Source of the DNA: Oscillospiraceae bacterium | Lineage (GTDB): Bacteria; Bacillota; Clostridia; Oscillospirales; Oscillospiraceae | Direction: 5' to 3' | Length of the DNA stretch: 36,119 bases | NCBI GenBank assembly: GCA_009786445.1 | Contig: WQTE01000014.1 | Location: 2,244 to 38,362, forward strand | Shown here: positions 4,573 to 9,027 of the stretch, in pieces | Layout of the letters: the number at the start of each line of letters is the position of its first letter | How positions within the stretch are numbered: the first letter of the stretch is position 1 | Notes under the pieces: generated by a model | Told to the model about the DNA's origin: nothing | The model's input: only the letters and a program-made list of their open reading frames with translations | The model's database searches: none | Position numbers and translations under genes: made by a program

Positions 4573-5985
4573 TTACAGCATATTTCCTACAAAAACACTC
4601 ACACAGACAAAATAAATTACGAGTGCTACTATATCCTTCAGCGATGTTATAATCGGAGCACTTCCCGCAGCTTGATCTACGTTACATTTAATGAGAACAA
4701 ACGGCACAAGAAACCCCAGCAGGGATGCTACAGTCATGGTAATAACCATCGCCAAAGCAACAGCCAAACCAAGCATCGGTATACCCAAAAACACTGAAGC
4801 TACGACACCCGAGATTGTGCCAATCAGCGCACCGATGCTAAAGCCTATGCCAATTTCTTTAATGAAATGCTTAACAAAATTCTTTAGCTGAATATGCCCT
4901 AATACGACTCCACGTGTAAAAACCGTTGAAGATTGTGTGCCGACATTTCCACCCATGCCCATGATGAGTGGTATGAAAATTGCCACTGCCGCTATTGACT
5001 CCAATGTATTTTCAAATCCGTCTATAATAAGCCCGGACAACATACCGAGTACCATAGTTGCAAGCAAAAACGGCAGGCGAACTTTCCAAATTTTCCAGAG
5101 CCCTCCATTAATCAAAACATCGCTTCTGTCCGATTCGTTACCCGTGACATCTGCAAGACCCGCCTGGTCAAAGATGTCCTCCGTTGTCTCATCTTCCAAG
5201 ATATCAACAGCATCGTCGATTGTCACGATACCCACCAGACGACCTTCTTTGTCTACAACGGGAATTGCGAGCAAGTCGAGTTCTTGCAATGTGCGGGCTA
5301 CTTCCTCCTGGTCGGTATCGGTGCTTACGCTTATTGCATTTTTTGACATTATCTCGCCTATGGGTGTATTGCCGTCGGTTTTTCCGATGGTATCTCCCGA
5401 TACTCCTCTCGCTATGAGCAGCCCTTTGAGGGTCAACACGCCTTCGAGTTTCTTTTTATCGTCCGTAACAAACAGGGTGTATACTGTTTCCTTATCCTCT
5501 GCCTGTGCACTTACCCGTTCTAAGGCTTGCTCAACTGTCATGTTGCGCCGCAGCGAGATATACTCCGTGGTCATTATGCGCCCGGCTGTCTCGGGCTCAT
5601 ATCCCATGATAATACTGGTCGATGCACGTTCTTCGGGTGATAGTGACACGAGTAGTCTTTTTGCTACACTTGCCGGCAGTTCGTCAAGCAGCCTGACCCT
5701 GTCGTCCGGCGACATCTCGTTGATCATTTCTATTGTATGTTCTTTTGAAAATGAACTCAGCAGGTTACGCTGAACGTCGGTGTCAAGTTCTTCAAAGATA
5801 GATAGTGCTTCATCTTTTTTAAGCATTCTGAACACTATAACCTGGTCGTCATCCGACAGGTCATAAAACACTTGCAATATCTCCATTTCCTCGGCTTCTG
5901 AGAGTAATTTTTTCAAAGCCGTCATGTTTTTTTCTTCAATCAGGCTGAGTATTTTTTCCATTAATTCACTGATTATTTCTGCCAT
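4573..5985 (-). CDS. mgtE: Magnesium transporter MgtE
   Basis: N-domain, two CBS domains, C-terminal TM domain with MGMGGNVGTQSSTVFTRGVVLG; SD GGGGGG before ATG. Confidence 0.95.
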   Translation of the reverse strand: MAEIISELMEKILSLIEEKNMTALKKLLSEAEEMEILQVFYDLSDDDQVIVFRMLKKDEALSIFEELDTDVQRNLLSSFSKEHTIEMINEMSPDDRVRLLDELPASVAKRLLVSLSPEERASTSIIMGYEPETAGRIMTTEYISLRRNMTVEQALERVSAQAEDKETVYTLFVTDDKKKLEGVLTLKGLLIARGVSGDTIGKTDGNTPIGEIMSKNAISVSTDTDQEEVARTLQELDLLAIPVVDKEGRLVGIVTIDDAVDILEDETTEDIFDQAGLADVTGNESDRSDVLINGGLWKIWKVRLPFLLATMVLGMLSGLIIDGFENTLESIAAVAIFIPLIMGMGGNVGTQSSTVFTRGVVLGHIQLKNFVKHFIKEIGIGFSIGALIGTISGVVASVFLGIPMLGLAVALAMVITMTVASLLGFLVPFVLIKCNVDQAAGSAPIITSLKDIVALVIYFVCVSVFVGNML

Positions 5986-6059
5986 TTTATTCCCCCCTTT
6001 TTTGTTTCCTGATATATTTTAGCATATAGTAGGCGGTTTACGGATTGCGCAGGGCAACG

Positions 6060-6093
6060 AAAAACCATCGCTTGATGATTTCTCAAACGATGG
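6060..6093 (-). terminator. Intrinsic terminator/attenuator in the mgtE leader
   Basis: Minus strand CCATCGTTTGA-GAAATCA-TCAAGCGATGG-TTTTT: 11-bp stem with one G-U wobble, 7-nt loop, five Ts. Confidence 0.8.
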
Positions 6094-6199
6094 CTTATAT
6101 ATCAACGAGCATACCCGTTCTATCACGGGCAATCTAACACAGCGAGCGCATGGACACAGCTCCGCCATAGTCTTGTGCTTTGATTATATACAAGCCATC
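6089..6199 (-). promoter_or_regulatory. Putative antiterminator pairing in the mgtE leader
   Basis: Minus-strand GATGGCTTGTATAT (6199-6186) pairs with ATATATAAGCCATC (6102-6089): 14 continuous pairs with one G-U; the second arm contains the terminator 5' arm CCATC. Confidence 0.7.
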
Positions 6200-6229
6200 A
6201 TTACTACTTCGACTTCCGCCGGCGTCCAT
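6134..6229 (-). CDS. Putative 31-aa leader peptide upstream of mgtE
   Basis: MDAGGSRSSNDGLYIIKAQDYGGAVSMRSLC; ATG at 6229 behind AAGGGGGTGAGAAC, a strong SD with normal spacing; followed by the attenuator. Too short for the ORF track. Confidence 0.6.
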   Translation of the reverse strand: MDAGGSRSSNDGLYIIKAQDYGGAVSMRSLC

Positions 6230-6270
6230 GTTCTCACCCCCTTGAGCTTTCAATTTTTATGTCCTTATAG

Positions 6271-6299
6271 ACTATAGCACAGATATGTGGACAAATCAA
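6271..6299 (-). promoter_or_regulatory. Sigma-A type promoter for mgtE leader (TTGATT-17 bp-TATAGT)
   Basis: Minus strand TTGATT (6299-6294), TATAGT (6276-6271), 17-bp spacer. Confidence 0.6.
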
Positions 6300-6341: not shown

Positions 6342-8960
6342 TTACACTTTTCTATGCCTGAACCATTTTACCACTTCCATTATTATTATCGTGCCGACTG
6401 CGAGAGCTGCTGCCAGTGCCCATTCGTATGTGCCGAATTGCTCTGCGATGGAAAATACTTCTCTGGCACCCGGCAGGATAGTGATTACGTACAAACCCAG
6501 ACATACGCCGACAGCGAGCAGTACGTAGCGATTGCTCATCAGCCCGAGCTGCGGCAATGTTTGGGTATTGGAGCGTGATGAGAATGTTTGCAGAGTTCTT
6601 GCGAGTATAAGTGTTGTGAAAGCCATTGCGCCGCCCACTGCGGGGTCGCCCATAGAGATGCCGATAAACTGAGCAATGATAGCTGCTATGCCTATGAGGG
6701 TTCCGCGAATCATTACACTGACAAACAGTCCGCCGCCAAATATTCCTTCATTCATATCTCTGGGCGGGCGTTCCATAACTGACGGCTCACTTTTTTCAAG
6801 TCCGAGAGCAATAGCGGGAATCGAGTCGTTTACTAAGTTGATAAAAAGGATTTGAAGTGCTGTCAGCGGAGAATCCCAGCCTACTGCAAATGCGAAAAGG
6901 ATTGCCAAAATGGCGGCAAGGTTACCTGAGAACAAATAACCTACAACCTTTTTGATATTGTCGAAAATCGTGCGCCCTACGGCTACCGCGCTGACAATGG
7001 TTACAAAGTTGTCGTCTGTCAAAATCATTGCCGATGCATCTTTGGAGACTTCTGTGCCGCTACCCATTGCAACGCCAATATCGGCTTGTTTCAAAGAGGG
7101 AGCATCGTTAACACCGTCACCTGTCATTGCTGTAATCTGACCTCTCTTTTGCCACGCCTTTACTATGGTTATTTTGTTTTCGGGCGAAACTCTGGCATAT
7201 ACTGATATATGCGGCAGTTTCTCGTCTAACTCTGCCTCTGACATATCATCGAGTTCCATGCCCGTCACCGCAATGTCGCCCTCTCGCAGAATTCCTATGT
7301 CCTTGGCAATCGCTGTTGCGGTGTTTTTGTGGTCGCCGGTTATCATTACGGTTCTGATGTGTGCACTTTTTGCTTGTGCTATTGATGCATAGACCTCCTC
7401 CCTAGGCGGATCTATCATTGCCGAAAGACCTATGAGTGTCAGCTCGTTTTCATCTTCAAGCGATATTGTATCACCGCTCACTTTTTTTGCCCCATAGGCT
7501 AAAACCCTGAGTGCTTTGCTGCCGAAAGTGTCGTTTGCATCTTCAAATTGCCTCAGCAGTTCGGGAGTCAGCGAAACCGTCTTACCGCCCACCATTACGG
7601 AGTTGCAACGCGAAAACATTACATCGGGTGCACCCTTTGTAAACATATACCTCTTGTCTGCCTCACCCTCTGCCGACATATCATTCAGCGTGCTCATCAG
7701 TTTTCGCTCCGAGTCAAACGGAAGCTCTGCTATTCTGGTGTATTCACTGCGCAGTTTTTCGTGTGAGTGCCCGTTTTTGTTGCAATAGACGAGCAGCGCA
7801 GTTTCAGTCGGGTCGCCGATTTGGCTGCCGTCTTCTTTGACCTTCGCATCGTTACACAGTGCCATGGACTTGAGGAGCAAGGAGTCTTCGAGCTTGCCGT
7901 CACCAGGCAGGAAGTGCTCCATGACTGTCATTTTGTTTTGTGTGAGTGTGCCTGTTTTATCTGTACAGATAACGCTTGTGCTCCCAAGTGCTTCTACAGC
8001 AGGCAGTTTGCGGACAATGGCGTTTTTCGCCGCCATTGTTTTAGTACCTACAGCGAGAACGATTGTCACAACGGAAGCGAGTGCTTCGGGGATTGCCGCC
8101 ACGGCTACTGCGATTGCGAACATAAATGCACTCAGTATGACCTGATACATTTCTGCATCTCCGCCGTCGGCGAATGCCCTTGCTATCTGCGTAGCAAATA
8201 TCACCGCACAGATTACCATGATAACAAGTCCCAGCTTTTTGCTGAACTGTTCAAGTTTTCTCTGGAGCGGAGTCTGCCTGTCGTCGGCTGTTTCAATCAG
8301 CGTTGCTATTTTTCCGATTTCCGCCTGTTTAGCTGTGCCGGTTACGATATATGTTCCCCTGCCGTGAACCGCAATTGAGCCGCTGTAAACCATGTTTTTT
8401 CTGTCGCCCAGTGCGAGATTACCGTCGAGGGTTCTATCAGTTTTTTCTACGGGTACCGACTCTCCCGTGAGAAGCCCTTCGTCTATCCTTAGGGTTTTGC
8501 ATTCAAATAATCTGCCATCCGCGGGGACAAAGTCGCCCGCTTCGAGTGTCACTATGTCGCCGGGAACAAGTTCTCTTGCAGGGACATGAGTGATCTCCCC
8601 ATTTCGCTTGACCTTAGCTACCGGTGCACTTATCTGCCTGAGAGCTTCAAGTGAGCCCTCCGCTTTTCTCGTTTGAATAACTGAAATAAGGGAATTTACA
8701 ACCAAGACTGCAATGATAACAAGTGATTCAAGAAACTCCCCTATGAAAAGTTTGATGATCACAACAATAGCAAGTATAATCATCATCGGGTCTTTCCATG
8801 CTTCAGCAAAGAGCTTCCACAGCGGAGTCCTCTCCGCTTGGCGAAGTTCGTTGTAGCCGTGTTCCTCTGTACGCTTTGCCACTTCCTTGTCGGCTAATCC
8901 GTCCTGCGATGTGCTAAACTCGGTAAAGATAGTTTCCGGGGGTTTTTGATAAATTTCCAT
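6342..8960 (-). CDS. P-type cation-transporting ATPase (Ca2+-ATPase/PMCA-like; possibly Mn2+ efflux given its leader)
   Basis: CTDKTGTLTQNKMTV, TGES, MITGDHKNTA, MTGDGVNDAPSLKQADIGVAMGSGTEVSKDASAMIL. Start set at MEIYQKPPETIF (ATG 8960, SD AAAAAGGAGTGCGAC) rather than 9023, which lies in the riboswitch terminator. Confidence 0.93.
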   Translation of the reverse strand: MEIYQKPPETIFTEFSTSQDGLADKEVAKRTEEHGYNELRQAERTPLWKLFAEAWKDPMMIILAIVVIIKLFIGEFLESLVIIAVLVVNSLISVIQTRKAEGSLEALRQISAPVAKVKRNGEITHVPARELVPGDIVTLEAGDFVPADGRLFECKTLRIDEGLLTGESVPVEKTDRTLDGNLALGDRKNMVYSGSIAVHGRGTYIVTGTAKQAEIGKIATLIETADDRQTPLQRKLEQFSKKLGLVIMVICAVIFATQIARAFADGGDAEMYQVILSAFMFAIAVAVAAIPEALASVVTIVLAVGTKTMAAKNAIVRKLPAVEALGSTSVICTDKTGTLTQNKMTVMEHFLPGDGKLEDSLLLKSMALCNDAKVKEDGSQIGDPTETALLVYCNKNGHSHEKLRSEYTRIAELPFDSERKLMSTLNDMSAEGEADKRYMFTKGAPDVMFSRCNSVMVGGKTVSLTPELLRQFEDANDTFGSKALRVLAYGAKKVSGDTISLEDENELTLIGLSAMIDPPREEVYASIAQAKSAHIRTVMITGDHKNTATAIAKDIGILREGDIAVTGMELDDMSEAELDEKLPHISVYARVSPENKITIVKAWQKRGQITAMTGDGVNDAPSLKQADIGVAMGSGTEVSKDASAMILTDDNFVTIVSAVAVGRTIFDNIKKVVGYLFSGNLAAILAILFAFAVGWDSPLTALQILFINLVNDSIPAIALGLEKSEPSVMERPPRDMNEGIFGGGLFVSVMIRGTLIGIAAIIAQFIGISMGDPAVGGAMAFTTLILARTLQTFSSRSNTQTLPQLGLMSNRYVLLAVGVCLGLYVITILPGAREVFSIAEQFGTYEWALAAALAVGTIIIMEVVKWFRHRKV

Positions 8961-9002
8961 GTCGCACTCCTTTTTAGTCTCGGCGAGGTCAAATAGTAAA
9001 AA

Positions 9003-9027
9003 ACCTCTGCCTAAATCTGGCAAAGGT
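9003..9027 (-). terminator. Rho-independent terminator of the yybP-ykoY riboswitch expression platform
   Basis: Minus strand ACCTTTGCC-AGATTTA-GGCAGAGGT-TTTTT; its 5' arm is the 3' P1 strand of the aptamer. Confidence 0.85.

Follow-up and report, generated by a model that had tools for sequence, protein, structure and literature searches.

How is the expression of bacterial magnesium transporters governed by the RNA that precedes their genes? Several described systems bear on this question. In Salmonella, codon-specific translation has been linked to Mg2+ (PMC6335274; PMC11282234), and translation of short open reading frames (ORFs) in the leader of the mgtCBR operon controls that operon by attenuation (PMC3641672). 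The pe20 operon of Mycobacterium tuberculosis carries both an M-box and a small upstream ORF, with the M-box controlling the ORF (PMC12810186), and the Thioalkalivibrio mgtE motif is a riboswitch candidate that has no upstream ORF and has been reported from Thioalkalivibrio only (PMC11109978). Here we describe the mgtE leader in a window of 36,119 nt (the whole stretch of DNA analyzed; contig WQTE01000014.1) from an Oscillospiraceae bacterium, together with its relatives in other genomes. By sequence comparison, the element is a member of a large leader family and not an isolated case. The family is apparently undescribed: our searches of the open-access literature turned up no account of it. 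We consider it fairly probable, on comparative grounds, that these leaders are translation-coupled, cis-regulatory switches for Mg2+ import genes, in which the position of the ribosome selects the RNA structure.

The controlled gene in the window is mgtE, a Mg transporter on the minus strand (4573–5985; Pfam MgtE_N, CBS, and MgtE; TIGR00400, 7e-123), and all leader features lie on the same strand. An earlier note on this DNA had proposed a promoter, a strong Shine–Dalgarno (SD) sequence, a 31-codon ORF, and a terminator in that order, and this anatomy is borne out. The promoter-like site (6271–6299) consists of a −35 element, TTGATT, at 6299–6294, a 17-nt spacer, and a −10 element, TATAGT, at 6276–6271; a promoter scan recovered it at the same place, though with 9 of 12 matches it scores no better than shuffled sequence. 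The SD, AAGGGGGTGA (6243–6234), is strong and is retained among relatives. It precedes the leader ORF MDAGGSRSSNDGLYIIKAQDYGGAVSMRSLC (6229–6134), 31 codons plus a stop, whose peptide begins MDAGG and whose seventh codon is an in-frame CGA (6211–6209), our proposed pause site, directly followed by AGT (6208–6206). An intrinsic terminator (6060–6096) is formed by pairing of 6096–6083 with 6075–6062 around the loop GAAATCA, with a T run at 6064–6060. Both the minimum-energy fold and a dedicated stem search recovered it, and it was missing from the output of a simple terminator scan; the stem is longer than the 11 bp that had been assigned to it. The leader as a whole folds far more stably than shuffled sequences (−75.3 vs. 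−55.2 kcal/mol, z = −4.6).

The terminator would compete with a second, predicted structure. The 5′ strand of a putative antiterminator lies within the ORF at codons 9–15 (6203–6185), and its 3′ strand (6102–6085) overlaps the 5′ arm of the terminator; the duplex is better than those of shuffled sequences (P = 0.01), and five species of the genus retain both strands. It includes the run of 14 continuous pairs that the earlier note had pointed out between the ORF and the terminator-arm region, formed by GATGGCTTGTATAT (6199–6186) and ATATATAAGCCATC (6102–6089) with G-U pairs included. A further predicted helix, the anti-antiterminator, joins CATGGACGC (6230–6222), which overlaps the start codon, to GTGTCCATG (6157–6149) at the end of the ORF; both arms appear in the minimum-energy fold, the 5′ arm also in folding with a blocked ribosome. 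The minimum-energy fold likewise contains the ACATGGAC/GTCCATG helix, previously noted from the letters. A search with all Rfam models gave no family at cut-off in the window, M-box or other, and no M-box match even at E < 10, in keeping with the absence of M-box hallmarks remarked on before. Directly upstream of the mgtE promoter lies a gene (6342–9023, minus strand) that by best match encodes a Ca2+-type P-ATPase and not MgtA; its best matches, TIGR01522 and TIGR01116, are both below their cut-offs.

How widespread is this leader? We collected the family from regions upstream of mgtE in the window's genus, family, and order. SD-preceded leader ORFs were found before mgtE in 102 cases, spread over 14 families of the order; the working set held 103 leaders and came to 102 after removal of L222 (MDTDSHRRNR), which we judged spurious in view of the M-box that its gene carries. 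The ORFs are about 20–40 codons long (e.g., MDAGSSRIRSSDDGS, VDPGGSRCISSNDGLYE, MDAGSSNGTSAGRSS, METGSSKGKPRST, MDLCGRSTKMDSDVPL, and MDDYPRSRQ) and share the N-terminal consensus M-[D/E]-...-[G/P/S/D]-R(CGA)-S(AGT). Conserved are the SD and start codon, an acidic residue at codon 2, the in-frame CGA, and RNA pairing; the C-terminal half of the peptide showed no conservation among the leaders compared. In the window's family, no leader could be recognized before roughly half of the mgtE genes looked at. A DNA similarity search with the leader yielded the first three homologues, each before mgtE in another species, and otherwise mostly noise; an exact 17-mer search of the order, which was too strict, matched the leader's own genome only.

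Some loci differ in ways worth recording. The closest relative of the window's mgtE (88% identity; L042 in genome G010) has no leader ORF, and upstream of it lies an inverted repeat, GTAAACGTTGA...TCAATGTTTAC, that is operator-like in appearance. Three loci in the genus (L053, L055, and L057) carry a distant, second-type mgtE paralogue (33–35% identity) with leaders MDDYPRSR/VDESPRSR, downstream of which stand a GC-rich hairpin and a T run. Seven short-type leaders (L096, L097, L098, L110, L111, L221, and L223) have a second conserved stretch, DxxVPL(W/C) (GATGTTCCCTTATGG-like), 3′ of the CGA.

The leaders are closely tied to genes for Mg2+ transport. A sequence-only model of the leader 5′ part, searched against 199 genomes of the order at a threshold of E < 1e-4, gave 24 matches: 22 before mgtE, one before mgtA (in genome G205, where the gene is a Mg2+ P-type ATPase), and one at a contig end. 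A wider search, over 339 genomes of the class, gave leader matches before mgtE in families beyond the order, along with one before mgtA; L310 and L311, both weak, are probably chance matches. Leaders upstream of mgtA genes, identified by TIGR01524, read MDSDSSPRRHRA, MEPGGSSKSPRQ, and MDGKPRSRTDKP. Of 119 genomes of the order, only 4 gave an M-box match, each time immediately upstream of mgtE; the window's own genome gave none (RF00380 search). The CGA leader was absent from three of the four M-box-bearing upstream regions, and the fourth has only the doubtful ORF of L222. Because the M-box is rare, lies before mgtE, and is found there without a convincing CGA leader, the two elements appear from their distribution to occupy the same slot. 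Upstream of another mgtE (L043 in genome G011), a tiny ORF, VDSDGSSYKKMILRKDYPYY, lies immediately before the gene alongside a sequence that is M-box-like by eye (unscored), so a leader ORF and an M-box may coexist in that one leader.

Is the CGA conserved as a codon? CGA was among the selection criteria for leaders outside the window's family, so separate counts were made on 73 leaders chosen by an SD and D/E at codon 2, with no other codon criterion. Within codons 1–16, CGA is in frame in 66 of these (39/43 in the window's family and 27/30 in other families), compared with 9 and 12 in the other two frames (6 and 7 in the family; 3 and 5 outside it). Measured from the best SD start, CGAAG(T/C) is in frame 0 in 40 of 43 leaders, and CGAAG is in frame in 19 of 21 from other families. 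Here and throughout, the counts cover related sequences and are uncorrected for phylogeny, near-identical ones having been removed only for the leader:anti-SD coevolution test described below. The distance from start to CGA varies from 3 to 17 codons, the ORF frame is kept, and the spacing shifts in multiples of three. Neither outcome that the earlier note named as refuting its proposal was seen: no M-box or other riboswitch matched, and the frame did not drift while the helices were retained with changes (below). The Arg codon of the motif is CGA in 47 of 54 family leaders, and CGA makes up only 10% of Arg codons in mgtE itself; some leaders have no CGA. Since the CGA bases are mostly paired in predicted folds, part of their conservation may act at the RNA level, and it is the frame that separates codon from RNA effects; part of the frame-keeping, in turn, could reflect a requirement that the remainder of the ORF stay open. 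As for the tRNA complement, among 30 of the 40 tRNA matches in the window's own genome (90% complete), there were tRNA-Arg genes with ACG and TCT anticodons and none with TCG. This set is compatible with, though no proof of, decoding of CGA by inosine wobble, which would be the case in an organism lacking tRNA-Arg(UCG).

Pairing is conserved alongside the codons, with different outputs in different relatives. An intrinsic terminator is present in only 14 of 103 leaders, including five from the window's genus, and was rejected as the general output. In these five species all antiterminator cells are paired (40/40), as are 95% of the terminator helix cells. One antiterminator pair has changed on both sides, from G-C to A-U (in G006), and the change is matched in the terminator arm as well; covariation within these five sequences alone was not significant against shuffles (103/500). 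Outside the genus, the early ORF codons pair with an anti-SD sequence that masks the mgtE SD, and pairing of the mgtE SD in most relatives exceeds that in shuffles (0.81 vs. 0.69, P = 6e-8). Leader:anti-SD duplexes are stronger within a species' own leader than across species (−28.6 vs. −21.1 kcal/mol, permutation P < 1e-4), and none of 20,000 permutations reached the own value, the best being −24.1; as a control, the later part of the ORF showed no coevolution with the anti-SD (P = 0.34). In one example, L102, GGAAGTA...GGCAC...GCAGGC pairs with GCCTGC...GTGTC...TACTTCC, and in L126, CAA stands in place of CGA, with UUG in the partner strand. We considered the GAAGU of CGA-AGU as a universal anti-SD partner, which is only partly true: in long-type leaders, the main anti-SD pairing lies in the codons preceding CGA, where the AGT, GGC, and ACA biases are accounted for by this pairing. 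By comparison of sequences, then, both the codons and the RNA pairing are conserved. The alternative helices are thus kept with changes, through intact cells in the genus and strong coevolution in other genera.

How would ribosome position bear on these structures? We folded the window leader at equilibrium with an assumed ribosome footprint blocked. With no ribosome, the terminator is predicted (0.94); with the P site at codons 1–6, the antiterminator prevails, falling from 0.94 to 0.68; with the ribosome at codons 7–20, the terminator returns, and at codons 24–31, the antiterminator. The predicted switch flips at codon 6/7, where the CGA sits, and in this model a ribosome awaiting CGA at codon 7 occupies the last position at which the antiterminator can still form. 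For leaders of the long type, the mgtE SD is predicted to be least accessible when the ribosome stands at CGA and most accessible when it has moved 8–12 codons beyond, so that a ribosome at CGA has opposite predicted effects in leaders with a terminator and in those that mask the SD. The prediction from folding that ribosome position sets mutually exclusive RNA structures is supported by the coevolution.

What the comparison itself shows is a family of ORFs kept in frame, associated with particular genes, and coupled to coevolving pairing; that Mg2+ is the signal, that ribosomes pause at CGA, and which way the response runs are inferences. In the switch that we favor, ribosomes would initiate on the short leader ORF from its strong SD, and their location on it would choose between two RNA structures that exclude each other. 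For the window's genus, the choice would lie between the antiterminator, with its 5′ strand in codons 9–15, and the intrinsic terminator that precedes mgtE; for most relatives, it would lie between an anti-sequestor made from early ORF codons and the hairpin masking the mgtE SD. The pause site is probably set by the in-frame CGA that the leaders share, which AGU usually follows. Low Mg2+ would alter this pause, or cause ribosomes to drop off once past the N-terminal acidic residue, and mgtE or mgtA would be turned on. Because conservation extends to the SD and start, the acidic residue, the CGA, and the pairing, and not to the C terminus, the active feature is more likely codon identity or ribosome position than the nascent peptide; the ribosome-position logic of the earlier note, analogous to MgtL, fits these data. 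A bolder, class-wide extension, in which decoding of a single CGA controls Mg2+ import, inosine wobble becomes rate-limiting at low Mg2+, and the leader replaces the M-box with the ribosome as sensor, seems to us doubtful.

Two other accounts of the leader are each improbable in our judgment, and to the same degree. The leader might switch as RNA alone, through a so far undescribed aptamer that binds Mg2+ or another ligand directly, with the ORF an incidental passenger: the alternative structures are strong and coevolving, pairing explains the nucleotide-level conservation of the AGT, GGC, and ACA codons, and the CGA bases are mostly paired. An aptamer alone, however, would not account for retention of the strong SD and start codon or for start-to-CGA spacing that shifts by whole codons only with CGA in frame, and we found neither a separate conserved aptamer-like structure nor an Rfam match. 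Alternatively, any drop in ribosome activity, Mg2+ shortage being one cause, could expose the leader and switch the gene in the manner of ermC. Ribosome position alone flips the predicted structure and the peptide is not conserved past its N-terminal part, as such a general slowdown sensor would have it, but the leaders are tied to Mg2+ transporters only and a specific codon is conserved. That the Arg codon senses charged tRNA-Arg is very unlikely, despite its conservation: there is typically one such codon per leader, CGA is preferred over other Arg codons, and we rejected an arginine sensor given that there is no Arg run and the controlled genes are Mg2+ transporters. Least credible of all is an ORF that overlies an ordinary terminator by chance, with no regulation involved; the promoter match taken alone is at chance level, but ORF, frame, and pairing are conserved across many families, and the coevolution and in-frame CGA contradict it.

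If the translation-coupled switch is correct, bacteria with this leader probably gauge magnesium by the movement of ribosomes over the leader ORF. The family would then be a probable Mg2+ control system for a large bacterial group in which none could be annotated before, because most relatives have no M-box. It makes a sharp, testable claim: one synonymous change, CGA to CGU, in the short leader should alter Mg2+ control.

Among known systems, the best reading by analogy is that the leader family works like MgtL of enterobacterial mgtA. Both place a short, SD-led, translatable ORF before a gene for Mg2+ transport, and they share an acidic residue at codon 2, often with Pro and then Arg; the progress of the ribosome, which in MgtL determines the alternative RNA structures, is predicted to do so here as well. 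Such an acidic/Pro start followed by Arg gives the leaders MEPGSTCSPEPDGRRRYILKY and MEPGSKRSPDPDGQRR (L219 and L235, before mgtE) and MEPGGSSKSPRQ (L270, L272, and L274, before mgtA) a resemblance to MgtL, and EPD-like segments are confined to a handful of relatives, L219 and L235 among them. The systems differ in several respects: the leaders here belong to another bacterial class and lie mainly before mgtE; the EPDP motif near the N terminus of MgtL is missing from the window leader and most relatives; a conserved CGA stands here in place of CCC/CCU Pro codons; and the output is Rho-dependent there and, as predicted, by intrinsic terminator (window) or SD masking (most relatives) here. The likeness is one of logic, which would thereby extend to both mgtE and mgtA of a different class and to two kinds of output, terminator and SD masking. 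The Salmonella mgtCBR leader likewise holds short translated ORFs before Mg2+ transport genes but differs in gene order, codons, and organism. The Thioalkalivibrio mgtE motif (PMC11109978), also a cis RNA before mgtE with the SD and start codon within a stem, was considered as the identity of the window leader and rejected as a different RNA. The pe20 operon (PMC12810186) also has a leader under Mg2+ control that contains a small upstream ORF, whereas the window leader has no M-box. The M-box (ykoK) Mg2+ riboswitch itself serves the same gene and, judging by distribution in the few relatives that have it, apparently does the same job; it does so with an aptamer, where the leader described here has a translated ORF and no RF00380 match up to E = 10.
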